Made by a program: the position numbers and the translations under genes
Notes under the pieces: model-generated
Databases searched by the model: none
Seen by the model: only the letters and a program-made list of their open reading frames with translations
What the model was told of the DNA's origin: nothing
Assembly (NCBI GenBank): GCA_020060545.1
Contig: JAGUZX010000134.1
Span: 1 to 64,000 of the forward strand
Direction of reading: 5' to 3'
From: Desulfovibrio sp.
GTDB lineage: Bacteria; Bacillota; Dethiobacteria; DTU022
DNA length: 64,000 nucleotides
Shown here: in pieces, positions 22,666 to 36,329 of the stretch
Numbering within the stretch: position 1 is the stretch's first letter
Layout: each line of letters starts with the position of its first letter

Positions 22666-23097
22666 TTATCCCGCGCAGGTGCCAATATGCCCCAGGCCAA
22701 TCGATTCAAGGAAATCGGCATAGTTTTTTTCTTCCAATTCAGGCGGAGAGGCGAGAGTGAAAAAAATAATCTCCCTTTTCCTGATCAGTTTGTAAAAGGA
22801 ACCTTCTTTTCCCGGGGCATTATCACTAGACAAACTTTCCAGAACAGCGCTCGGGGCCACGAAAATAATATCAACAGGCAGTTTCCGGAAACCGGTAAAA
22901 CCCACCTCTTCGATAAGCGGCAGTGCCGCCTGGTTGGGCCTTAAAATCAGAGCGCTGCCCCCCTGGTTTTCAAAGACATCTTTTGCCAGGAAGCCGATTT
23001 GGGCCGAAGAACTTAAACCCGCAAACAGCGCCATGTTATCTTCGATCCAGCTCCGCCAGAGCCCGTTTGCCTTTTTTGCCAGTTCCATACTTGCCAC
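22666..23097 (-). CDS. Hypothetical protein
   Basis: 143-aa ORF immediately downstream of the OYE-like gene; no family confidently recognised. Confidence 0.6.
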   Translation of the reverse strand: MASMELAKKANGLWRSWIEDNMALFAGLSSSAQIGFLAKDVFENQGGSALILRPNQAALPLIEEVGFTGFRKLPVDIIFVAPSAVLESLSSDNAPGKEGSFYKLIRKREIIFFTLASPPELEEKNYADFLESIGLGHIGTCAG

Positions 23098-23102
23098 CCG
23101 TA

Positions 23103-25055
23103 CTACAGTTTCGCTCCCAGGCGGTAACCTTCGTGGATCGCCTGGTAAAGCCCCCTCGGCTTGACTGCGTCCCCAATGCAGTGCAGTTCATCTACCGCGA
23201 ACTCCAGGGTATCCAGCAAAGAACTGTCGGCATCCCGGCGGCTGGAGATCACTGTATCCGCTTCGACCAGCACCGTCTCGTTGTTTTTGTAGATGATCAA
23301 CACGCCCGCTTCACAAATTTCCTTAATCCGGGCACCGGTAAAAGCCTCGATACCCAAATTTTTCACCAGCGAAATATGCCGCCACTTTGCGGTAGGCATA
23401 ACATCCCCGGCCAGATGCTGCTCTGACTCGATGATCATCACCTGTTTGCCTTTGCCGGCCAGGTTTTCAGCAATATATAGGCCCACTTTTCCTCCGCCGA
23501 GGACCGCCACCTTTTCGCCCGCTTGCGTTTTTCCTCTTAAGACGTCCAGGCCGTCTGCAACCTGCCCGCCGGCCAGGGGATAGTCTGTGCTGATCTTTGC
23601 CCCTGTCGCCAGGACTACTGCGTCAACATCCGGGTATAGTTTTCGGAAATTTGGGCCAACGGCAGCGTTCAGTTTGACCTCTACCCCGAGCTTGCCGAGC
23701 ATAGCCCGGTAATACCTAAGGAGGTCGAAGAGGTCCTCCTTGTTCGCCAGGTCGTGCTCCGCCATCAGCCTCAGCTGGCCGCCGATCTGATCTTCTTTCT
23801 CCAGCACAATCACTGCGTGACCCCGCTGCGCGGCGGTGATCGCGCATTCAAGCCCGGCGGGGCCGGAGCCGATGACGGCAACCTTTTTCTTGAGCGGCGC
23901 TTCTTCCGGCTCCGCGCCCAGCTCTACTTCGTGCCCCAGAACCGGATTGCTGGTGCAAAGATAAGGCAGGTCGCGGAAGAGCCTGGAGAGGCAGAGCAGG
24001 CAGCCGATACAGGGCTTGATCTCCGCCTCGCGTCCCGCGGCGTATTTATGCAATCTTTGCGGGTCGGCCAGTAAAGGGCGGCAGATTTCAAAAAAATCAA
24101 TTACGCCGCCCGCGATCAACTCATCGGCCATGGCCGCATCGGGCAGGCGGACGCCGAAAGCGATGGGCACATTTCCGGTCACCTTTTTGGCGTTCTTAGC
24201 CAGGTAATTCCAGTGCCCCGGTTTGACATCCCGCCCGATCGATGAGATCCTTGATTCCTGCCATCCTACGACCAGGCTGATCATGTCAACGCCGCCGGTT
24301 TCCACCGCAATCCTGATCATCTCCAGGCATTCTTCCTCCGTGTTGCCGCCGAACTCGTCCATCAGCTCGGCGCCGTTGAGGCGCAGGCAAAGCGGACGGT
24401 CTCCGATCGCCTCCTTGATCTCCTTGATGATTTCCACCATGAAGCGCGCCCTCTTCTCAACCGGTCCGCCGTACTCGTCAGTGCGCTTGTTGGTAAATTT
24501 CGAGAGGAAATTTGCCATAAAATAGCCCATAAAGCTGGTGACTTCCACCCCGTCAAAACCGGCCTGAATCGATCGCCGGGCCGCGGCGGCGTGTTCTTTA
24601 ACCGTCAGCCTGATCTCCGCTTTGCTCATCTCCCTGGGCGGGCGGAAATGCGGCAGCGTTTGGGGAATTTCCGAAGGCTGGACACAGTATCCAAGGTCGA
24701 TCCCTCCGTAACGCCCGGCATGAAGGATCTGCTGGATCGCCACCCCCCCGTTTTCGTGGATCAGCGCGGCGATCTTGGCAAACTGGGGTATAAACTTATC
24801 GTCATAAAGCGCGATCTGCCTGTAATAGGCTTTTCCCTCCCCCCTGGGGTCGGGATAAGCCCCCTGGTTGGTAATGATCCCGCACCCGGTCGCAGCGATC
24901 ACTTGCACGCGGCCGAGCTCTCTTTCGGTAATCCAGCCGTCCCGGCTGTTGTAATTGGAAACTCAGCAGGCAGCGTATTTGACGCGGTTCTTGGTTTCAA
25001 AGCCGCCGATTTTCCCCGGCTTGAAAATGTGAGGATATTTATCTTTTCCGGTCAA
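23103..25055 (-). CDS. OYE/2,4-dienoyl-CoA reductase-type flavoprotein with C-terminal NAD(P)/FAD domain; candidate selenoprotein read through in-frame TGA at 24963..24965 (Sec31)
   Basis: Same-frame translation from TTG 25055: MTGKDKYPHIFKPGKIGGFETKNRVKYAAC[TGA]VSNYNSRDGWITERELGRVQVIAATGCGIITNQGAY; then TIM-barrel, CIGCLLC...C Fe-S motif and GSGPAGLECAITAAQRG. Confidence 0.8.
24934..24948 (-). promoter_or_regulatory. Candidate bacterial SECIS hairpin
   Basis: RNA after UGA: GUUUCCAAUUACAA-CAGCCG-GGA-CGGCUG-GAUUACC; 6-bp stem, GGA loop beginning 21 nt after UGA. Confidence 0.5.
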
Positions 25056-25209
25056 CCCGTTTCACCGCCTTTCAGTACTCTTGATGCTTTAGCCGGAAAA
25101 TTACGGCAGATCCCGGGTACGGCTACCGTGCCCGCGATCAGGCTGTCTTCAGCAGAAACACCCTCCAGCGGTGCGGGGGCCAACGAGGCAAAGGCCCTTA
25201 ATTCCGCCG

Positions 25210-27225
25210 CTAAAATTGAGGAGTTCGTTTTTCCAGGAACGCGGCGATACCCTCCCTGGCCCCTTGGGTGCAGGCGACTTCGCCAAAAGCCTTGTAGCCA
25301 ACCTCCAGAGCTTCCTCGAAAGAGGGGCTCGCGGCGGCATCCCGGACCGCCTCGGAGATGATCTCCACGACCTCCCGGCTGAGCGGCAATTTCCCGGCCA
25401 TTGGCGCCTCCAGGGATGCCAGCGCGGTGATCGCCACCGGTTGATCGGCAATGCGCGGAATCGGTTTGCCCGCCATCTTCTTCACGGCGCGGACGGCCAG
25501 TTTGATCAGAGCGAGGTAATCGCCGGCCAACCCGGAGACAATGCCCAGGTCGAGCGCTTCTTTCGCTGTCAGCCGTTTTGCCTGCCGAATCATGTCGTGG
25601 AACAGCTCCGAGGCGGCGGGCCAGCGCCGGTAGGGGACCACCATCCCCCCGATGCCGGGAAGAATTCCCAGGGTTACTTCGGGAAACTGGAACCAGGCCT
25701 GCTCCGCAGCCATGATCTGGTGGCAGCGGAGGGCCAGTTCAAAACCGCCTCCCAGGGCCAGGCCGTTCACCGCGGCAACTACCGGCTTGCTGCACCGGTC
25801 CAGGTAGCGCAGGAGCAGGGAACAGTCTCGGGCATACTCCACCGCGGCGGCGGCATTTCCCAGCATCTGGGGAAACTTGCCGATGTCCGCGCCGGCGCAA
25901 AAAGCGCGTTCGCCGTACCCGGTAATGACAAAGCCTTCGACGGCAGGATCGGACTCGTTTTCTTTTAAGACCTCCAGGATCTCCATATTGACCTCGTCGC
26001 TTAAAGCGTTCATCACCTGCGGGCGCCTGATGGTAATGATCTTGACGCCGTCCATTTCATCGACGAGAATATTCCGTTTGAAGTTTTGGTAACTGCCGTA
26101 GCCGGCCTCAATGCCCGGCATCCCGGGGCGATCTTTTTGGAAACCGGCCATGATCTTTTTGACCTTCTCTTCACCAAGCTCGCTCATGATATCGAAGGGC
26201 CCTTTCCGGAAACCGAGGGCGATCTGGCAGCCGAGGTTTAAATCCTCCAGCGTCCCGATGCCCTTGTTGATAATGTCAAACGACTGGGAAAAGAGGACGC
26301 CCAGGAGCCGGCTGCGAATTTTTTCCGCTTTCTGCTCATCCAGCTCCACTTTTTGGCCCGGTTTAAGGGTGACCCAGGTATCAACGGAACGCAGGATATT
26401 GGCGGGACGGTAATGTTCGCCTTCTTCCATCTGCAGGGAGTTTGTCTCCACAATGATCGGATTGCCCCGGGCGAGGTTTAAAACGAAAAAAGGGCCGGCA
26501 AAAACGTATTCCTGGGCGACCTGATCGATCTGGGGAGCGGTAGCGTCATCGAGCAGCAGGGCGGCATCGTTGCACCAGTTGTCAAAGATGCGGTCGAGGA
26601 CAAAACAGATCTTATCCAGGGTCACGATGGGGACCTTTCCGGTGGCGCAAAACATCCAGGTCAGGTAGTCGATGACTGCGCGGTCCGCCTTCGCCCAGGT
26701 AACTACTTCTACGGCGGGGTTGCGCCAGGCCGGGGCGAAGAAGTGGGTTATGGAAGTCCTGGCGGGCATCCCGGCTTCGGCAAAGATCCTTTCCGCGGGA
26801 ATGGAGCTCGTATTGGAGGTGATAATAGTATCTTTACGAACTTGCTCCTCGATCCTGGCCACGATCTTTCTCTTGATCGCCAGGTTCTCCGTGGCGGCCT
26901 CGATCACCAGATCAGCATTTTTAATCGCCGCGTAGTCCGTGGTATAAACAATATTGGCCCCAATGGCCGCGGCATCATCCGCCTTCATTTTTTTCTTTTC
27001 CACGGCCTTTTGAATATAGCCCTGGATTCTCTTTTCCGCGTTTGCCAGCTGCGCTTCCACGATATCGACGATCACCAGCCGAATGCCGGGCAGGGTGCTT
27101 TTAAAGTAATAGCCGATGTCGGGGCCGATCGTGCCGGCGCCGATGATCGCAACTTCTCCCGGCAGCGCCCGGCCGGTTTCGTGCAAAAGCGGATTGCGGT
27201 GTGTGGGGTAGAGCTCTGCTGTCAT
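25210..27225 (-). CDS. Fused 3-hydroxyacyl-CoA dehydrogenase / enoyl-CoA hydratase
   Basis: EVAIIGAGTIGPDIGYYF (NAD-binding) ... DLVIEAATENLAIKRKI ... C-terminal crotonase AFCAGADIGKFPQML, GLALGGGFELALRCHQIMA. Confidence 0.92.
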   Translation of the reverse strand: MTAELYPTHRNPLLHETGRALPGEVAIIGAGTIGPDIGYYFKSTLPGIRLVIVDIVEAQLANAEKRIQGYIQKAVEKKKMKADDAAAIGANIVYTTDYAAIKNADLVIEAATENLAIKRKIVARIEEQVRKDTIITSNTSSIPAERIFAEAGMPARTSITHFFAPAWRNPAVEVVTWAKADRAVIDYLTWMFCATGKVPIVTLDKICFVLDRIFDNWCNDAALLLDDATAPQIDQVAQEYVFAGPFFVLNLARGNPIIVETNSLQMEEGEHYRPANILRSVDTWVTLKPGQKVELDEQKAEKIRSRLLGVLFSQSFDIINKGIGTLEDLNLGCQIALGFRKGPFDIMSELGEEKVKKIMAGFQKDRPGMPGIEAGYGSYQNFKRNILVDEMDGVKIITIRRPQVMNALSDEVNMEILEVLKENESDPAVEGFVITGYGERAFCAGADIGKFPQMLGNAAAAVEYARDCSLLLRYLDRCSKPVVAAVNGLALGGGFELALRCHQIMAAEQAWFQFPEVTLGILPGIGGMVVPYRRWPAASELFHDMIRQAKRLTAKEALDLGIVSGLAGDYLALIKLAVRAVKKMAGKPIPRIADQPVAITALASLEAPMAGKLPLSREVVEIISEAVRDAAASPSFEEALEVGYKAFGEVACTQGAREGIAAFLEKRTPQF

Positions 27226-27404: not shown

Positions 27405-27439
27405 CTTCTCACTTCCCGCATCTCACCTCTCACTTCTCA
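27405..27439 (-). repeat. 7-bp-period array (GTGAGAA) beginning at the stop codon of the acyl-CoA dehydrogenase
   Basis: Minus strand TGAGAAGTGAGAGGTGAGATGCGGGAAGTGAGAAGG. Confidence 0.85.
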
Positions 27440-28576
27440 TTTGCCCAGCAGTTCCCTGGCGATAACGAGCCTCTGGATCTGATTGGTCCCCTCAAAAATG
27501 GCAAAAATCTTGGCGTCACGCATCATCCGCTCGACCGGGTAATCCCTGGAATAACCGTAGTCGCCCAGCAAATCCGCCGCCTTGGAGGTAACATCCATCA
27601 CCATATCGGAGGCAAACAGCTTGCTCATGGCCGAAAACTTGATATAACCCTCTTCTTTCCGGTCATATTTTACGGCTGCGGCCTGAGTCAGGCTGCGGGA
27701 AGCCTGGATTACAGTCTCCATGTCGGCCAGGGTGAATTGGACCGCCTGGCTCCCGGCGAGAGGAACCCCGTCGGACACCGCGTCCCTGGCAAACGCAAGC
27801 GCGGCATCCAGGGCCCCCTGGGCCAGGCCGGTCGCCATGGCGCCGACCATAACCCTCCCTTTATCCAGGCAGTCGAGGGCGATGCGGAAACCGTCCCCGA
27901 TTTTACCGACGATATTCTCCCCGGGCACCCTGACCTGATCGAAGATTATTTCCGCCGTCGAAGATCCCTTCAGCCCCATTTTCTTTTCCAGCTTCCCTGT
28001 CGACAAACCCGGTGTGCCCCGTTCAACCAGGAAAGCGGTCAGCTTATCTTTCCCGCCGGCGTCTACTTTGGCAAAAACCACGAGCAGGTCGGCAATGTTT
28101 CCGTGCGTAATAAATATTTTACTGCCGCTAATGCTGTAACTGCCTCCATCGAGCACGGCCCTGGTCTGAACCGCGGCGACATCCGAACCGGCATTGGCTT
28201 CCGTCAGGGCGAAAGAGGCCAGGCACTCTCCTGAAGCAACCTTTGGCAGGTACTTCTTCTTTTGCGCCTCGCTGCCCCAGAGCACCAGCGGGCTTGCCCC
28301 GAGAGACTGGTTCCCCAGAATCATGGATGAAGCCCCGCAAACTCTGGACACCTCCTCGATCGCTACGCACAGTGTTGACAGGAGGCCGTCAGTACCCCCG
28401 TACTCCGGCTGCACCACGAGCCTGAACAGCCCGGACGCGGCAAAAAGTTCCTTTACCTCCCACGGAAATTCGCCCTTTTCGTCTGTCTCCGCCGCCTGCG
28501 GCGCCACCCTTTCCAGCATCATTTTCCGCACTTCATCTCTTAAGCGGAGCTGCGCTTCGCTGAGCCAGAGTCCCAT
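27437..28576 (-). CDS. Acyl-CoA dehydrogenase
   Basis: CLASFALTEANAGSDVAAVQTRA; YSRDYPVERMMRDAKIFAIFEGTNQIQRLVIAREL. Confidence 0.93.
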   Translation of the reverse strand: MGLWLSEAQLRLRDEVRKMMLERVAPQAAETDEKGEFPWEVKELFAASGLFRLVVQPEYGGTDGLLSTLCVAIEEVSRVCGASSMILGNQSLGASPLVLWGSEAQKKKYLPKVASGECLASFALTEANAGSDVAAVQTRAVLDGGSYSISGSKIFITHGNIADLLVVFAKVDAGGKDKLTAFLVERGTPGLSTGKLEKKMGLKGSSTAEIIFDQVRVPGENIVGKIGDGFRIALDCLDKGRVMVGAMATGLAQGALDAALAFARDAVSDGVPLAGSQAVQFTLADMETVIQASRSLTQAAAVKYDRKEEGYIKFSAMSKLFASDMVMDVTSKAADLLGDYGYSRDYPVERMMRDAKIFAIFEGTNQIQRLVIARELLGK

Positions 28577-30921
28577 TATTCCCCTCCCCTCTCTTCCGAT
28601 CCGTCTGCGTCAAAAAGCAACTTTTCCGGGGTTAAAGGAAGGCTGCGCACGCGCTTCCCCGTGGCGTCATACACGGCGTTGGCGATGGCCGGGGCGCTTC
28701 CCACCAGCGGGGGTTCACCGATCCCCTTTGCGCCAAACGGGCCAAAACGTTCGCCCGTCTCCACGATGATCGAAGTAATCTCCGGCATGTCGGCAAAGGT
28801 CAACATTTTGTAGTCCAGGAAATTGGGATTCAGGACCTTGCCTTTTTCGGTTTGCAGATTTTCCATGAGGCTGTAACCGATGCCCATGGCCGCGCCGCCC
28901 TCGAGCTGGCCTTCCAGCAGCATCGGGTTGATCGCTTTTCCGACGTCCATGGCGATCACGTATTTTAAAATCTCCACCCGGCCCGTTTCGCGGTCCACTT
29001 CCACCTCCGCCCCGTGCACGCCGTAAGTGTAGGCGGCGGAAAAATTCCCCTTCATCTCCTTGTCGAGCATCTGGGTGGGCGGATCATAAAAATGCGAGGC
29101 CACGATCTGGGTGCCGCCTGTTTTGAAATGGGCCGCCCTTAAGACGCGCTCAAGCTGCATCGATACGGCGGGATTGCGCCGGGAATAGACGACGCTGTTT
29201 TTGATCGCGAGATCCTCCTGCGGTTCATTCAACAGGGAAGCGGCGAGAGCAAGGATCTGTTCTTTGGCGCTGCGCGCGGCATAAAGGGCCGAGTTGCCGG
29301 CGACAAAAGTAGTCCTGCTGGCATGGGCGCCCACGTCCCAGGTTTCAAGATCGGTGTTGCCCATAATCACTTTGATATCGCCGATGCAAACTCCGAGCTC
29401 TTCGGCCACGATCTGGGCGATGACCGTGTCTGATCCCTGCCCCATATCGGTGGCTCCGCTCATGACGGTGACCTTGGCAAAGTCATCCAGCTTGATGATC
29501 GTGCCGCAGGCGTCGGATTTGTAAATCCGCGCCCCGCCGCCGACGTGAATCAGGGAACCGACCCCGACCCCGCGCCCGTTCCGCTTGCCCCTCTTTTCGT
29601 TCCAATTGAGACTTTCACGCACGGCCTCCAGGCACTCTTTCATCCCGCAGCTGCCGACCTTGAAGCCCTGCGGCGTTACCTCGCCGGCAGTGTTGGCATT
29701 AAGCATTCTGAATTCGAGGGGATCAAACCCCGCCTGCTCCGCCAGGGCATCGATCTGGCTCTCGATGGCGAAAGTGGCCTGGGGGTTCCCGTAGCCCCGC
29801 ATCGCCGTAGCGTAAATGTTGTTTGTATACACGCATCGGGCCGTGTAGCGCACGTTGGGCACCTTGTAGAGGGAGGAGATCGGCATCATCATCACCGATG
29901 GTGTCGTCGCGCCCCACGAAGTATAGGCGCCGTTGTCGAGCACCATCTCGACATCGCGGAATGTGAGCCTGCCCTCCCTGGTGCAGCCCTGTGCTATTTT
30001 TGCTTCCACCTTCTGGCGCGCAGGCGTGGCGAAAAATTCTTCTTCCCTGGAGAAAACGAGCTTTACGGGGCGCCCGGCATAGTAAGCCAGCAGGATGGTG
30101 ATGAACTCGAACGGATAGGTATCCAGCTTGCTTCCGAAAGCCCCGCCGATCGCGGTTGAAACTACCCGGACCCGCTTGTCTTTCAAGCCCAGCGCCGCCA
30201 TCGCTTCGAGAAAATCCCGCTGGGCGAGGTAACGGATCTGGGTCGGGCTGTAAACGGTAAGGTTCCCACCCGGCTGGAATTCCGCCAGGCAGCCCGAGGT
30301 CCCCAGGCAGCAGTGCGTCACCCAAGGCAGCAAAAAGGTTTCTTCCACCACAAAGTCGGCCTGCCTGCGCCCTTCGTCCGGATCGCCGCAGATCAGCTTC
30401 CAGGGCAGTTTAAGGATGTTGCTTCCTTTCTCCTCGTGGATCAGCGGCGCGCCCTCGCGCATCGCTTCCACCGGGTCGAAAACGGCCGGCAGCGGCTCGT
30501 ATTCAACCTCGATCAGGCGCACCGCTTCTTCCGCAATTTCCAAGCTTTCCGCGGCGACGGCGGCAACCTCATCCCGGTACTGGCGCACCTTATCCTTTTT
30601 CAAGACCGGGTTGTCCTTTAGAAAGCCTACCTTGATCTCCGGGGTGTTGTAACCGGTGATCACCGCCCTTACCCCGGGTAACTTCTCGGCGCGGGAGGTG
30701 TCAATATTAAGGATGCGCGCATGAGCGTGCCGGCTCCAGAGGATCTTGCCGTAGAGCATCCGCGGCATTTTTAAATCGTGGATGTAAACGGCTTTCCCCT
30801 GGACTTTATCCAGCGCGTCAAGCTTCGGCAACCTCTTTCCGACCGCTTGCAGTGCAACCCCGCCTGATTCCGGTTCAAGAACTTTCGCCACAGGAACACC
30901 CCCTTTTGCTTGCCGCTGCAA
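28576..30921 (-). CDS. Molybdenum hydroxylase large subunit (xanthine dehydrogenase family)
   Basis: GGAFGSKLDTYPFEFITILLAYYAGRPVKLVFSREEEF; MRGYGNPQATFAIESQID; GAKGIGEPPLVGSAPAIANAVYDATG. Confidence 0.9.
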   Translation of the reverse strand: MQRQAKGGVPVAKVLEPESGGVALQAVGKRLPKLDALDKVQGKAVYIHDLKMPRMLYGKILWSRHAHARILNIDTSRAEKLPGVRAVITGYNTPEIKVGFLKDNPVLKKDKVRQYRDEVAAVAAESLEIAEEAVRLIEVEYEPLPAVFDPVEAMREGAPLIHEEKGSNILKLPWKLICGDPDEGRRQADFVVEETFLLPWVTHCCLGTSGCLAEFQPGGNLTVYSPTQIRYLAQRDFLEAMAALGLKDKRVRVVSTAIGGAFGSKLDTYPFEFITILLAYYAGRPVKLVFSREEEFFATPARQKVEAKIAQGCTREGRLTFRDVEMVLDNGAYTSWGATTPSVMMMPISSLYKVPNVRYTARCVYTNNIYATAMRGYGNPQATFAIESQIDALAEQAGFDPLEFRMLNANTAGEVTPQGFKVGSCGMKECLEAVRESLNWNEKRGKRNGRGVGVGSLIHVGGGARIYKSDACGTIIKLDDFAKVTVMSGATDMGQGSDTVIAQIVAEELGVCIGDIKVIMGNTDLETWDVGAHASRTTFVAGNSALYAARSAKEQILALAASLLNEPQEDLAIKNSVVYSRRNPAVSMQLERVLRAAHFKTGGTQIVASHFYDPPTQMLDKEMKGNFSAAYTYGVHGAEVEVDRETGRVEILKYVIAMDVGKAINPMLLEGQLEGGAAMGIGYSLMENLQTEKGKVLNPNFLDYKMLTFADMPEITSIIVETGERFGPFGAKGIGEPPLVGSAPAIANAVYDATGKRVRSLPLTPEKLLFDADGSEERGGE

Positions 30922-31357
30922 CGGCCTCCACGATCTTGGCGTAACCGGTGCACCGGCATAGATTTCCCGCCATCCCCCGCCTGATCTGATCCCGGCTGGG
31001 ACGAGGGTTTTCAGCCAGCAGCGCCTTGGCCGACATGATCATGCCCGGGGTGCAGAAGCCGCACTGGACGGCGCCGTGCTCCACAAATGCCTCCTGCAGC
31101 GGATCGAGCCGGCATTGCTTCCCGGCCAAGCCTTCAACGGTCTGCACGCTTTTCCCGTTAACAAAGGCCGCAAGCATCAAACAGGCGTTCACTGCTTCCT
31201 GCTCGACAAGCACGGTACAGGAGCCGCATTCACCGTAGCCGCAGCCCTCTTTGGCGCCGCGCAGCTCAAAATGCTCCCGGAGCATTTCCAAAAGAGTAAC
31301 CTGATCGGGCACTTCCGCGGTCACCGGGTCACCGTTAAGCAGAAACGATATCTTCAC
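30875..31357 (-). CDS. Molybdenum hydroxylase [2Fe-2S] small subunit (likely GTG start 31357)
   Basis: LREHFELRGAKEGCGYGECGSCTVLVEQEAVNACLML ... CGFCTPGMIMSAKALL ... NLCRCTGYAKIVEAV. Confidence 0.92.
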   Translation of the reverse strand: MKISFLLNGDPVTAEVPDQVTLLEMLREHFELRGAKEGCGYGECGSCTVLVEQEAVNACLMLAAFVNGKSVQTVEGLAGKQCRLDPLQEAFVEHGAVQCGFCTPGMIMSAKALLAENPRPSRDQIRRGMAGNLCRCTGYAKIVEAVAAASKRGCSCGESS

Positions 31358-31362
31358 TGCAA

Positions 31363-32244
31363 TCACCCCTTCATCGTTCGTCCCGAGCGCTCGAGAGCCT
31401 CGGCGGCGGCGCGCGGCAGCAGCGCGCAAATCATCTTCTTCCGGTAAGCGGCAGTTGTCCGGAAGCTCGTTCTGGGGCTCGAATCTTCTAGCGCCAGCAC
31501 TCCCGCTTCTTCCCACACGGCGCGGTAGAAGGGTTTTCCGGCTACATGCTTCTCCGCCCTGATCGCCCTGATCGGGGTCGGAGCGGCCAGCGTCAACGCA
31601 ATCCTTGCTTCTCGACAGATCTCCCCGCCGGCTTCAGGAATCAGCGTGACGGCAACCCCGAGCAGCGGCAGATCCATCGCTTTGCGCCGGGTATGCTTGA
31701 GATAGCGGGAACAGGCCTCCGGCGGAAGCTCCGGGATGATGATCTGTTTCAACACTTCATTGGCGGCCAGCGCGGTTTTACCGGGGCCGCGGAAAAATTC
31801 GTTTAAGGAAATGTTCCTTTCCCCCTCCGGCCCTTCAACCAGGAGTACGGCATCGAGAGCGAGCAGCGGACCCGCCGTATCCGCCGAAGGCGCCCCATTG
31901 CAGATATTCCCCCCCACGGTGGCCACGTTGCGCACCTGAACAGACCCCAGGTTGTCGACAGCATCAGCCAGCAGGGTGAACCGTTCCCGGATCAGCGGCG
32001 AGCGTTCAATCGCCCGGTGCGTAACCATGGCACCGAGCCGCAAATACCCGCCGCTAAAGTTGATTTCATTAACGCCGGGCACGCTGCGCAAAGATATGAC
32101 ATGATCGGGTTCCTTTTTCCCCTGCTTCATCTCCACAACCAGGTCTGTTCCTCCCGCAATAAGGCGGGCTTTTTCCCCGTACGCACTCAAAAGATGGACC
32201 GCATCTGCAATCGATTTTGGTTCGTGATAAGTAAACCTTCGCAA
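31363..32244 (-). CDS. Molybdenum hydroxylase FAD-binding subunit
   Basis: LIAGGTDLVVEMKQGKKEPDHVISLRSVPGVNEI; VRNVATVGGNICNGAPSADTAGPLLALDA. Confidence 0.9.
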   Translation of the reverse strand: MRRFTYHEPKSIADAVHLLSAYGEKARLIAGGTDLVVEMKQGKKEPDHVISLRSVPGVNEINFSGGYLRLGAMVTHRAIERSPLIRERFTLLADAVDNLGSVQVRNVATVGGNICNGAPSADTAGPLLALDAVLLVEGPEGERNISLNEFFRGPGKTALAANEVLKQIIIPELPPEACSRYLKHTRRKAMDLPLLGVAVTLIPEAGGEICREARIALTLAAPTPIRAIRAEKHVAGKPFYRAVWEEAGVLALEDSSPRTSFRTTAAYRKKMICALLPRAAAEALERSGRTMKG

Positions 32245-32261
32245 TGCTTATCCCTCCCCTA

Positions 32262-32282
32262 ATTGGAAGTTGGAAGTTAGAG
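32262..32282 (-). repeat. Short 7-bp-period array (TTCCAAC type) upstream of the FAD-subunit gene
   Basis: Plus strand TTGGAAGTTGGAAGTTAGAGG. Confidence 0.5.
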
Positions 32283-32300
32283 GTTTGCTGTCGGAAATAC

Positions 32301-32340
32301 CCCTCTTACCCTAACCCTCTCCCGCCAGGGGGGGAGAGGG
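32301..32340. repeat. Palindromic CCCTCTCCCGCC...GGGGAGAGGG repeat
   Basis: CCCTCTTACCCTAACCCTCTCCCGCCAGGGGGGGAGAGGG, able to form a strong hairpin. Confidence 0.75.
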
Positions 32341-32445
32341 AATCCTCTCTCTCGCTTCCCGCCATCAGAGCGCCATGCGGCTGTCGGCATGCCGAAACCG
32401 TCCCCACTTTTCTTGCTATCAACAGCTCGAGAGCGGCCTCATTTT

Positions 32446-32485
32446 TTTCCCACTTCCCACTTCTCACTTCCCACCTCTCAATACG
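32446..32485 (-). repeat. 7-bp-period array (GTGGGAA/GTGAGAA) supplying the hyuB C-terminus and stop
   Basis: Minus strand TTGAGAGGTGGGAAGTGAGAAGTGGGAAGTGGGAA. Confidence 0.85.
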
Positions 32486-34227
32486 GCGGTAGCTTTTTCG
32501 TCCACAGTAAAAGTGTCCCTGTCGATGACCACACCGTAATCTTCTCTTGCCTTTTCGAAGGATACGACACCGTTTCTCACGTCGGCAAGAACCTTTTCCG
32601 GCGGGCGCAGGTGCGGGTCGCCGTAACCGCCGCCGCCTCCGGCCTGCTGGTACCAGATTGTCCCTTGCGGGACACCGTGCACCAGCTCCTTGCTCCTCGG
32701 AACGTACACGCGTCCGTCCGGGTAGCGCAGCTCGATTCTGTTCAAAGTGCCCGGCTTTCCTCCAAAAAGGCCGAAAGCGGGCTCGACATCGCCGTCGCCA
32801 AAAGTGACACAGGTAGTATTACCCGCGTTAATAACGAATCCGGTCTCCACGCCCAGCCCGCCGCGCCACCGTCCGGCGCCCGCGGAATCGCAGAGATACT
32901 CGTGCTGGAGCAGCAGGTGGGGATCTTGCAGCTCAAACATTTCATAGTCCTGCGCCAGGACCCCTCCGGAGGCGTCGATCATACCGATATGATCGTAACC
33001 GTCAAAGCCGCGTGTTCCCCCCGAGCCGCCTTTCATGGCCAGGAAAAGAATATCGACGTAGGGTGCGTTCTTCCGGGGATCCTGGCCGGTCACCAGGCCG
33101 CACAGCAGCTGATTCCATCCCGCGGTAACCCGCTCCGGGATGGCCGGGGCAAGCGCCCGGATGATCGCGTCGGCGACCGGCGGGCAGAGATGATTGCCGA
33201 AGGTTGTCGCGGCCGGGAAGGCGGCGTTAAGAATTTTCCCCTCCGGGATGATCATCCGGATTGGCCTGGACATGCCGTCATTGTGCGGGATATCGGGATT
33301 GACCATCTGCAGGAACGTCAGGATCACGGCTGATGCGGAAGAGGTAAAGGTGCCGTTCACAAAAGCAGGCGTCTGGGAGTCGGTTTCTGAGAAATCAAAA
33401 GTAATCGTTTCATCTTCCACGGTGATTTTGACCCGAATTTTGTAGGTTGAACCGATGTTTTTCCCGTCATAATAAACGGTCGATTCGCCAAGGTAGACCC
33501 CGTTGGGGATACTCCTGATCTCCGCCTGCATCATTTTTTCCGTTGAACGGTAAAGATAATCCTTGTGGGCTTCGTATACCGCCAGGCCGTACTTGCCGAT
33601 CAGTTCCAGCATCCGCCTTTCGGCCAGGGTGCAGCTGCCGATCTGGGCCGTTAAATCCGCCGGCACGATATCGTAGCGGATATTGGCAAAGATCAGATCC
33701 CAGACATCCCGGCGCAGTTTTCCTTTTTCGAAAACTTTCACCGGTGGAATCCGCAGGGCTTCCTGCCATACCTCCGTGGCATCGGGATTGTAGCCTCCCG
33801 CCACCGCGCCCCCGATATCGGCCTGATGACCCTTGCAGGCAGCCCAGGCGATAAGCTTTCCCTCGCCGAAAATCGGTTTATATACGGCTACATCATTGTT
33901 CTGGTTTCCGAGGGAGAAAACATCGTTGTGGAAAATCACATCGCCCGGGTAGATCTCGTCCCCAAAATAACGCACAATGTACTCGCATACGGGGCCCAGG
34001 GAGAACGATAAGATGGGGAGATTCTCGGTTTGTTCCAGCATTTTACCCGCCCCGTCATAAAGGCCGGTGACAAAGTCCTTGGCCTCACAAAGGATCGGGG
34101 ACCTGGTTGTCCGGGTAATGGCATGGCTCATCTCCTGGGTGATTGATTTAAACCGCCGCTGAAACACCGAAACGAGAATTTTGTCGATCTTGACCGCGCT
34201 TGCCGCATCCGTTTTCGCTTCGCTCAT
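32464..34227 (-). CDS. hyuB: Hydantoinase B/oxoprolinase family protein
   Basis: FQRRFKSITQEMSHAITRTTRSPILCEAKDFVTGLYDGAGKMLEQTENLP; GRWRGGLGVETGFV. Confidence 0.9.
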   Translation of the reverse strand: MSEAKTDAASAVKIDKILVSVFQRRFKSITQEMSHAITRTTRSPILCEAKDFVTGLYDGAGKMLEQTENLPILSFSLGPVCEYIVRYFGDEIYPGDVIFHNDVFSLGNQNNDVAVYKPIFGEGKLIAWAACKGHQADIGGAVAGGYNPDATEVWQEALRIPPVKVFEKGKLRRDVWDLIFANIRYDIVPADLTAQIGSCTLAERRMLELIGKYGLAVYEAHKDYLYRSTEKMMQAEIRSIPNGVYLGESTVYYDGKNIGSTYKIRVKITVEDETITFDFSETDSQTPAFVNGTFTSSASAVILTFLQMVNPDIPHNDGMSRPIRMIIPEGKILNAAFPAATTFGNHLCPPVADAIIRALAPAIPERVTAGWNQLLCGLVTGQDPRKNAPYVDILFLAMKGGSGGTRGFDGYDHIGMIDASGGVLAQDYEMFELQDPHLLLQHEYLCDSAGAGRWRGGLGVETGFVINAGNTTCVTFGDGDVEPAFGLFGGKPGTLNRIELRYPDGRVYVPRSKELVHGVPQGTIWYQQAGGGGGYGDPHLRPPEKVLADVRNGVVSFEKAREDYGVVIDRDTFTVDEKATAVLRGGK

Positions 34228-36329
34228 TTCACAACCCTCCCCGCAAATTCTTCCTCTCTCTCTTTGAGGAAGAGCATGAAACTGCCGTACCGATCTACAA
34301 CTAAAGCATACTCGGGGGTCACAAACGCCGTTGTATTGACTTGCTCAATGATCGCCGGTCCCGCAATACGGTTGCCGTATTTAAGCCTGGCGCCGTCAAA
34401 TACCGGGACATCGGCGAACTCCTTTTGGGCGGGCAGGTATACCTTGCGGTGCCGTTTGTATGCCGGCGCGGGGTCGCCGCCCGTAAATTCCTCTTCCATA
34501 AACTGCGGTTTATCCGTGCGGCCGATACAGGAAAGGCGCATATTCAAAAGTTCAATCGGTGTCCCCTCTTTTTCCAGCGAGTAGCCGTAAAGCAGGTTGT
34601 GCTTCCGGTGAAACTGCCGGGCGATCTCTTCGAGGTTAAAATTAAAAACGTCTTCCCGCGAAACCGATACGTTAACCTCGTGATATTGCTTGACGTAGCG
34701 CATATCCAGGCTGTAGCTGTTTTCGACCCTTGTTTCGGGGATTCTTTCATTGCGCAGGTATCCCCTTCCTTCTGCCTCCATTTCTTGATACAGGTTCAAA
34801 AACGTTTCCTTTTGTAAACGCGATAACGGGACGGAATAAGTGCGGACGAAATCGTGTTTCAAGTCGGACATGAGCATCCCGGCCGCGCAGAAAATAGATG
34901 ACTCCTTGGGGATAATGATGACCGGTATTTCCAGCTCAAGTGCGATCATGCAGGCATGATTGGGGCCGGCGCCGCCGGCTACCACTAGGGGGAAATCCCG
35001 CGGGTCTTCTCCTCTTTTTACCGACACCTCGCGCACCCCGGCAGCCATATTCACATTGATGATGTTATACATGCCGGCGGCGGCTTCCACCAGATCAAAC
35101 TTTAATTGATCGGCGATATGCTTTTTGATCGCCTCCGCAGCCCTGGCATAGTTGAGCTTCATTTTCCCGCCGGCGAAGAAGTCGGCATCCAGGTAGCCCA
35201 GGACCAGATCGGCGTCGGTACACGTGGGCAGTTCGCCGCCGCGATCGTAGCAGGCGGGGCCCGGTTTTGAACCGGCGCTTTGGGGTCCCATCCGCAACAG
35301 CCCGCCCTCGTCCAACCACCCGATGCTGCCGCCGCCGGCGCCGATGGTAACGATGTCCAGCATCGGCAGAGCCAGGCGGAGCCTGTTGATATCGCCTTCG
35401 GTAGTAACCAGCGGGGTTTTAGCCTTGATCAGGGCCGCATCGAAACTGGTTCCTCCCATGTCCACGGTAATACAATCGTTGAAACCGTTGATGGAGGTAT
35501 AGCTTATCCCCGCCACCGGGCCGGCCGCGGGGCCGGACAGCAGCGTCACGGCCGCTTCTGCCACGGCGACCTCCGGTGCGACAACACCGCCGTTCGACTG
35601 CATAATCAGAAGCGTCCCTTGAAAGCTGTTTTCCTTAAGCCTTGTGACCAGGCTCTGCAGGTAGCGCCGCAGTACCGGACCCACGTAGGAGTTAAGTACA
35701 GTGGTACTGAGGCGATCATAAAAACGGATCGAAGGAAGCAGGCTGCTGGAAACGGAGAGATAGCTTTGCGGCATTTGTGAACCGACAATCTCCGCCGCCT
35801 GCCGCTCATGCTCTTTGTTGGCAAAAGAGTTCATAAAACAGATTGCTACCGCTTCCACCCCTTCTTTTTCAAAGAGCTTGACGGCCTCCGCCACGCTCTC
35901 CGGCTGAAGCGGCATTACTACCGCTCCCCGGTAATCAACCCTTTCCTCCACGGGCCAGCGCAGGTAACGCGGCACCAGCGGCACCACATTCGGGTAACGG
36001 TTGTTGTACTGCTCTTCCCTGATGCCCCTTCTCATCTCCAGGGCGTCACGCACACCCCTGGTTGTCAAAAGGCCCGTTTTGGCGCCGCTGTAAGTGAGCA
36101 CGGCGTTCGTAGTCACGGTAGTGCCGTGCACAATGGTCTCCACCTGCCCCAGGAACTGCGCCAGGGAAAGATCCAGATCGCGGGCCATCTCGTTCAAGCC
36201 GTTTAAAAGCCCGATGGAGGGATCATCCGGAGTGGAAAGCACTTTGTAAATCTTCGAGGTTCCTTCTTCAAAAGCCAGCAGGAAATCGGTGAAAGTTCCT
36301 CCCACATCGATGCCGATCTTGTATTTCAA
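34224..36329 (-). CDS. hyuA: Hydantoinase A/oxoprolinase family protein
   Basis: KIGIDVGGTFTDFLLAFEEG; VHGTTVTTNAVLTYSGAKTGLLTTRGVRDALEMRRG; VDMGGTSFDAALI. Confidence 0.9.
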   Translation of the reverse strand: MKYKIGIDVGGTFTDFLLAFEEGTSKIYKVLSTPDDPSIGLLNGLNEMARDLDLSLAQFLGQVETIVHGTTVTTNAVLTYSGAKTGLLTTRGVRDALEMRRGIREEQYNNRYPNVVPLVPRYLRWPVEERVDYRGAVVMPLQPESVAEAVKLFEKEGVEAVAICFMNSFANKEHERQAAEIVGSQMPQSYLSVSSSLLPSIRFYDRLSTTVLNSYVGPVLRRYLQSLVTRLKENSFQGTLLIMQSNGGVVAPEVAVAEAAVTLLSGPAAGPVAGISYTSINGFNDCITVDMGGTSFDAALIKAKTPLVTTEGDINRLRLALPMLDIVTIGAGGGSIGWLDEGGLLRMGPQSAGSKPGPACYDRGGELPTCTDADLVLGYLDADFFAGGKMKLNYARAAEAIKKHIADQLKFDLVEAAAGMYNIINVNMAAGVREVSVKRGEDPRDFPLVVAGGAGPNHACMIALELEIPVIIIPKESSIFCAAGMLMSDLKHDFVRTYSVPLSRLQKETFLNLYQEMEAEGRGYLRNERIPETRVENSYSLDMRYVKQYHEVNVSVSREDVFNFNLEEIARQFHRKHNLLYGYSLEKEGTPIELLNMRLSCIGRTDKPQFMEEEFTGGDPAPAYKRHRKVYLPAQKEFADVPVFDGARLKYGNRIAGPAIIEQVNTTAFVTPEYALVVDRYGSFMLFLKEREEEFAGRVVK

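Follow-up and report, generated by a model that had tools for sequence, protein, structure and literature searches.

An OYE-family gene whose in-frame UGA codon very likely encodes selenocysteine

The window, the 64,000-nucleotide stretch of DNA analysed here, belongs to an uncultured anaerobic bacterium (MAG G000) and contains an Old Yellow Enzyme (OYE)-family gene on the reverse strand (23103-25055), whose 650 codons are split by a single in-frame TGA at 24963-24965. The ORF lister gave a 601-codon reading frame with a GTG start for this locus (23103-24908), and the upstream codons share its frame, as does the TGA. If the TGA is read through, translation from a TTG at 25055 to the TAG stop at 23105-23103 yields 650 residues without any further stop. 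A ribosome-site-like stretch (AGGCGGTG, 25063-25070, reverse strand) precedes the TTG and is conserved in the closest relative, locus L011, where both the TTG start and the aaggcggtgaaa box have been kept. The gene encodes a TIM barrel for FMN, a [4Fe-4S] motif (C349, C352, C355, C367), and FAD/NAD(P)-type domains. The Pfam profile Oxidored_FMN (PF00724) matches the read-through protein over profile positions 2-341 of 342, with 171 bits against a cut-off of 27. Because the match begins at profile position 2, the part in front of the TGA is the missing N-terminus of the domain. Between the window gene and L011 the synonymous sites are saturated, and dN is about 0.10 for codons 2-30, 0.12 for codons 32-60, and 0.09 for codons 61-340. 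The combination of low dN and saturated synonymous sites indicates that the codons upstream of the TGA encode protein and are as constrained as the domain itself. A sequence-only reading of the window had proposed the single in-frame TGA, the upstream TTG, the box resembling a ribosome-binding site, and the conserved N-terminus, and all of these held. Its statement that no other gene of the window is interrupted in this way was not systematically checked; elsewhere in G000, selD and two fdhA genes contain in-frame TGA codons.

Next to the OYE gene lies a gene for a 143-residue protein without any family match (22666-23097, reverse strand), which is listed as a probable partner. At the other loci of the Sec/Cys clade that were examined, homologues of this protein (23-30% identity, E-values of 1e-11 to 1e-21) adjoin the OYE gene, and it is possible that the ~145-residue protein is a partner of the Sec/Cys OYE. 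Members of this family were located at L116:10863-11333, L160:7992-8423, L117:3196-3723, L161:886-1311, L162:5917-6366, L164:10881-11318, and L165:7334-7768, and none of the members scanned matched a Pfam or NCBIfam model. The upstream neighbour of the OYE gene, also on the reverse strand, encodes a fusion of 3-hydroxyacyl-CoA dehydrogenase and enoyl-CoA hydratase (25210-27225). It is followed on the same strand by an acyl-CoA dehydrogenase (27437-28576; the acryloyl-CoA reductase and cyclohexane-carbonyl-CoA dehydrogenase models are closest, both below their cut-offs), a three-subunit molybdenum hydroxylase of the xanthine dehydrogenase / 4-hydroxybenzoyl-CoA reductase type (28576-32244), and a hydantoinase B/A-type ATP-dependent cyclic-amide hydrolase (32464-36329; closest to the NCBIfam caprolactamase beta and alpha models, below cut-off). 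Downstream of the OYE gene, on the opposite strand, there is a 2-oxoacid:ferredoxin oxidoreductase-like gene. The operon order of the window is kept in genome G011, and the region 28576-36329, whose order is also kept there, resembles a catabolic cluster for cyclic amides or N-heterocycles. In other Sec/Cys lineages the gene is found in a different context, with a dihydropyrimidinase-type hydrolase, ATC-hydrolase-family proteins, sigma-54 regulators, and a purine/cytosine-type permease. Genes of the ATC-hydrolase family (PF14196) recur beside these OYE genes (L119:4540-5028, L116:11589-12182, L160:7184-7783), and these recurrent neighbours hint at chemistry on N- or S-containing heterocycles.

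The homologues of the OYE gene were collected in an initial screen of 85,462 species genomes and in subsequent whole-genome searches across the order, class, and phylum. The first search gave one close relative, L011, from a Bacillota MAG (G057), which is 74% identical and has a TGA at the same codon, and the later searches contributed further orthologues of 59-69% identity. Altogether, five genomes have a TGA at the identical residue, namely that of the window and those of L011, L142, L143, and L144 (the latter four 59-74% identical to the window protein), and another five have a cysteine codon, TGC or TGT, at residue 31 (L111, L112, L140, L141, and L146, 59-69% identity). L142 to L144 are not independent of each other. 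The surrounding motif is KNRVKY(A/G)AC(U/C)VSN, in which the cysteine preceding the site (Cys30, TGC at 24966-24968, reverse strand) is invariant throughout the Sec/Cys clade. In the tree all ten Sec and Cys copies form one clade with support of 100/100, within which the two states are interleaved so that at least two changes are needed. Computationally, the distribution of UGA and Cys at residue 31 is thus shown to be that of a classical Sec/Cys pair. The OYE gene of G011 that is found in the matching gene order is 44% identical and encodes Thr in place of Sec/Cys; the syntenic gene has neither Sec nor Cys in both G011 and G012. Two further candidates were discarded. L145 (G500:C8) resembles the family from residue 50-51 onwards, whereas its preceding sequence is unrelated; this copy is therefore uninformative on residue 31 and is likely to be a truncated relic. 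L034 (G009), considered as a second UGA-containing OYE, has its TGA upstream of the start and therefore outside the gene.

In bacterial SECIS elements the consensus is a hairpin just downstream of the UGA with a G as the first or second base of its loop. The window gene contains such a SECIS-like hairpin, CAGCCG-GGA-CGGCTG (24934-24948, reverse strand), whose loop starts at 24942, 21 nucleotides after the A of the TGA, with a G as its first base, exactly as the sequence-only reading had described it. All five TGA copies have a stem of 5-7 base pairs, a loop starting 18-20 nucleotides past the TGA by the count of our script, and a G within the first two loop bases. Among the Cys copies, by comparison, four do not have a hairpin and one has a weak stem of 4 base pairs, so that a stem of at least 5 base pairs is present in none of the five. 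The peptide encoded there, N(T/S)RDG, is nearly identical in the TGA and Cys copies. The L011 hairpin is the same as that of the window except for the outermost pair, which is C-G in the window and U-A in L011. L142 to L144 build their stems from other codons (AACACC-CGTGAT-GGTGTT) with the register shifted by one base and at the same distance. When compared to synonymous re-coding, the hairpin has a P-value of 0.04 in the window, 0.011 in L011, and 0.16-0.23 in the other three copies. By itself, the hairpin is therefore only moderately unusual in any single copy; the difference between the TGA copies and the Cys copies is the better evidence, and it is the comparison of homologues that carries the case.

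The genome of the window is 95.5% complete and distributed over 135 contigs. It encodes an intact selB (C14:17002-18891), directly followed by selD (L056:7172-8221, contig C14), which has an in-frame TGA at codon 17, in the catalytic position (TASAG-U-AAKIG). When read through, selD scores 380 bits to TIGR00476. The TGA of selD is followed by a strong hairpin, and the protein is a Sec-type SelD. In addition, G000 has two fdhA genes for formate dehydrogenase (contig C37:10743-12740 and 240-1283; L122 and L127) with a TGA before HAP, where Sec usually stands, as have related genomes. Of selA there is solely an interrupted fragment (C14:104-436; L002, L098), which has lost a large internal part and contains a TAG in frame. 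This fragment brings together stretches similar to the two ends of SelA and is located on the same contig as the intact selB and selD. A tRNA-Sec gene (selC) was not found when this 95.5% complete MAG was searched with a tRNA-Sec model. The check for sel genes that the sequence-only reading had suggested thus gives intact selB and selD, a remnant of selA, and no detected selC. tRNA-Sec is present in the other four TGA genomes (G057, G484, G501, G510), in the Cys-form genomes checked, and in 18 of the 21 genomes of the first genome set. This distribution rules out that SelA and tRNA-Sec are simply missing from the lineage. The L011 genome, G057, has tRNA-Sec, selA, and selB (at least its beginning) side by side.

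The AlphaFold2 model of the protein, built with 25 homologues, has a pLDDT of 92.1 and a pTM of 0.90. Its best match in the PDB is 2-naphthoyl-CoA reductase (NCR; 6qkg, TM 0.93, 37% identity), followed by E. coli 2,4-dienoyl-CoA reductase (DCR) and then by the group of trimethylamine dehydrogenase (TMADH) and histamine dehydrogenase. The comparison to YqjM and FadH made in the sequence-only reading is refined accordingly, the nearest characterised enzyme being NCR, a dearomatising type III aryl-CoA reductase. Most relatives were gapped at Sec31 in the first alignment, and the alignment of this loop is uncertain by one residue. According to the local-pair alignment and the NCR numbering, residue 31 corresponds to V38 of NCR and to H26 of E. 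coli DCR. In DCR, H26 is near the N5 atom of FMN, from which the hydride is donated, and V38 takes the place of this residue in NCR (PMC6502838). From this alignment and the published structures, without any distance having been measured, Sec31 is inferred to lie beside the N5 atom of the FMN in the active site. The earlier assignment of the TGA to a flavin-contacting position held; the site has an offset of eight from the conserved Asn. The residue at this site is Val in NCR, His in E. coli DCR, Thr in the closest non-Sec relatives, and Cys in the direct orthologues. It is known that Cys26 of YqjM, Thr37 of OYE1, and Cys30 of TMADH share the offset after the conserved Asn.

Both the Oxidored_FMN domain and the catalytic tyrosine (Tyr178, Y197 in NCR) support the assignment to the OYE family. 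Also conserved with respect to NCR (6qkg, 6qkr), which has the same fold over the full length, are the second tyrosine (Tyr77, Y82 in NCR), the flavin-binding arginine (Arg225, R245), the potential-lowering glutamate near N1-C2-O of the FMN (Glu323, E341), and the four cysteines of the [4Fe-4S] cluster. The fold and these four cysteines match an architecture with FMN, FAD, and a [4Fe-4S] cluster, which is inferred from the motifs as cofactors were not measured. Apart from the exchange of Val38 by Sec/Cys and the vicinal Cys30, the protein differs from NCR in H284, which contacts the proton donor and is Gln266 here, in W459, which blocks NADPH and is Leu442 here, and in H123, which is absent. 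Because these three residues are not conserved, the electron donor and the substrate may differ from those of NCR, and because W459 and H284 are replaced we describe the enzyme as related to the characterised aryl-CoA reductases and not as one of them. A naphthalene or phenanthrene gene set was not seen next to the window gene.

Similar comparisons can be made with the other relatives. E. coli FadH/DCR (1ps9) has the same three-cofactor architecture, and its H26 also faces N5 of the FMN (PMC6502838), but it is only 29% identical in the structure alignment and has a His where the window protein has Sec and its orthologues Cys. YqjM and the thermophilic-like OYEs (1z41) have a redox-modulating cysteine, Cys26, at what is generally known to be the same offset after the conserved Asn; however, YqjM is a single-domain protein without Fe-S cluster and FAD domain, and uses Cys instead of Sec. 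TMADH (2tmd, 1djn) shares the architecture and has Cys30 at the same offset. Its FMN is known to be covalently bound as 6-S-cysteinyl-FMN, whereas there is no evidence of a covalent link in the window enzyme. TMADH contains ADP instead of FAD and oxidises amines. With respect to recoding, FdhA, SelD, and the FAD-dependent CoA-disulfide reductase likewise combine a UGA codon, a SECIS-like hairpin, and Cys homologues. The named NCBIfam families do not reach their curated cut-offs on the window protein (mycofactocin OYE 2, 368 against 793 bits; BaiCD, 332 against 825 bits; bilirubin reductase, 291 against 750 bits), and L111, L112, and L142 likewise remain below the cut-offs of these three models.

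Taken together, the OYE-family gene very likely encodes a selenoprotein in which UGA codon 31 specifies selenocysteine, although this conclusion is computational and the protein has been neither produced nor labelled. The assignment of Sec31, which the sequence-only reading had put forward, is supported because there are five UGA and five Cys homologues, the hairpin is confined to the UGA copies, and the relatives possess the Sec machinery. While the claim is strong for the family, active decoding in the window strain is inferred and not shown. In the proposed mechanism, SelB would decode the UGA as selenocysteine with the aid of the hairpin about 20 nucleotides downstream, and the product would be an OYE-family flavoenzyme of 650 residues that carries an iron-sulfur cluster and is related to the NCR group. 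Electrons would enter at the FAD and cross the [4Fe-4S] cluster to the FMN, which would pass a hydride on to an aromatic ring or an activated C=C bond while Tyr178 donates the proton. The selenolate of Sec31 and the vicinal Cys30 would tune the potential or reactivity of the FMN, or protect the reduced flavin site. The operon with molybdenum hydroxylase, cyclic-amide hydrolase, and beta-oxidation enzymes leads us to infer a (hetero)aromatic or unsaturated acyl-CoA or a lactam as the class of substrate. Reaction and substrate are inferred without any assay; the most likely function, at roughly even odds, is to reduce a conjugated or aromatic ring of a substrate that contains N or is activated by CoA. 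A bolder reading, which we consider unlikely, is that the selenolate forms a transient or stable Se-flavin adduct at N5/C4a or C6 of the FMN, or that Cys30 and Sec31 form a selenenylsulfide as an extra two-electron centre coupled to the FMN, either of which would enable hydride transfer at very low potential to a (hetero)aromatic substrate. To our knowledge, such a use of selenium has not been described in any flavoenzyme and would, if true, be new.

The alternative that survives best concerns this function. The protein could be a selenoprotein but an ordinary 2-enoate or dienoyl-CoA reductase, or a TMADH-like amine-type dehydrogenase, in which Sec would have a structural, covalent-flavin, or regulatory role. 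In favour of this are the missing W459 and the Gln in place of H284 of NCR, the architecture shared by TMADH and histamine dehydrogenase, and the position of the flavin-linked Cys30 of TMADH at the same offset. However, the tree places the protein together with NCR (100/100 support) and separately from the enoate-reductase-like sequences, and the low-potential signature E341 is conserved. We rate this alternative at somewhat less than even odds.

The next alternative accepts the selenoprotein family but supposes that the organism of the window has recently lost Sec decoding through deletion of selA and disappearance of selC. The window copy would then be a relic that is no longer decoded, and no more than a short peptide or, from the GTG at 24908, a protein without its N-terminus could be made. 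The selA remnant with its internal deletion and TAG, and the lack of a tRNA-Sec match in a 95% complete MAG, speak for this scenario. Against it, selB, the UGA-containing selD, the two UGA-containing fdhA genes, and the OYE gene are all intact downstream of their UGA codons. The selA remnant is located at the very end of a contig, about 100 bases from it, and thus both an assembly fault and a real loss are possible. In G057 the tRNA-Sec is just upstream of selA, and therefore the missing tRNA-Sec of G000 could lie beyond the end of contig C14. The ends of the selA deletion also resemble each other in sequence, which makes an assembly collapse possible. We regard a loss of decoding as unlikely.

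Still less likely is that, at least where selA is missing, the UGA is read as Cys or another residue by a tRNA with a UCA anticodon. Such tRNAs are known, and this reading would agree with the missing selA and with the Cys found in orthologues. However, the hairpin is present only in the UGA copies, the other four UGA genomes have a canonical tRNA-Sec, and no UCA anticodon was found among the G000 tRNAs at the best matches to the tRNA-Sec model, the genome not having been scanned as a whole. A nonsense mutation, pseudogene, or sequencing error, the standard reading of an in-frame TGA, is all but excluded and is rejected for the family by the presence of the TGA in five genomes, the low dN on both sides at saturated synonymous divergence, and the Cys in orthologues.

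Selenocysteine decoding of the OYE gene thus remains the preferred reading. An inventory from 2026 lists 119 prokaryotic selenoprotein families, none of which has an Oxidored_FMN (PF00724)/OYE domain (PMC13188914), and no model of NCBIfam as of June 2026 accepts the Sec/Cys OYE proteins. In the literature searched, which excluded subscription literature, nothing relevant was found for selenoprotein or selenocysteine together with OYE or naphthoyl-CoA reductase, and those papers on phenanthrene or PAHs that carry the word selenocysteine do so in reference titles only. The proteins are therefore very likely a new Sec-containing subfamily of OYEs, related to the type III aryl-CoA reductases and within a known flavoenzyme superfamily. 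Automatic gene calling trims such genes, here to 601 residues, and thereby loses the N-terminal strand that contacts the FMN. With this subfamily, the selenoproteome would gain a flavoenzyme superfamily, and selenium would be placed at the residue beside N5 of the FMN, which is among the best-studied positions of flavin enzymology. The natural pairs of Sec and Cys orthologues with about 60% identity, together with the Thr-type sister group, permit a direct test of the effect of selenium on flavin potential and hydride transfer.
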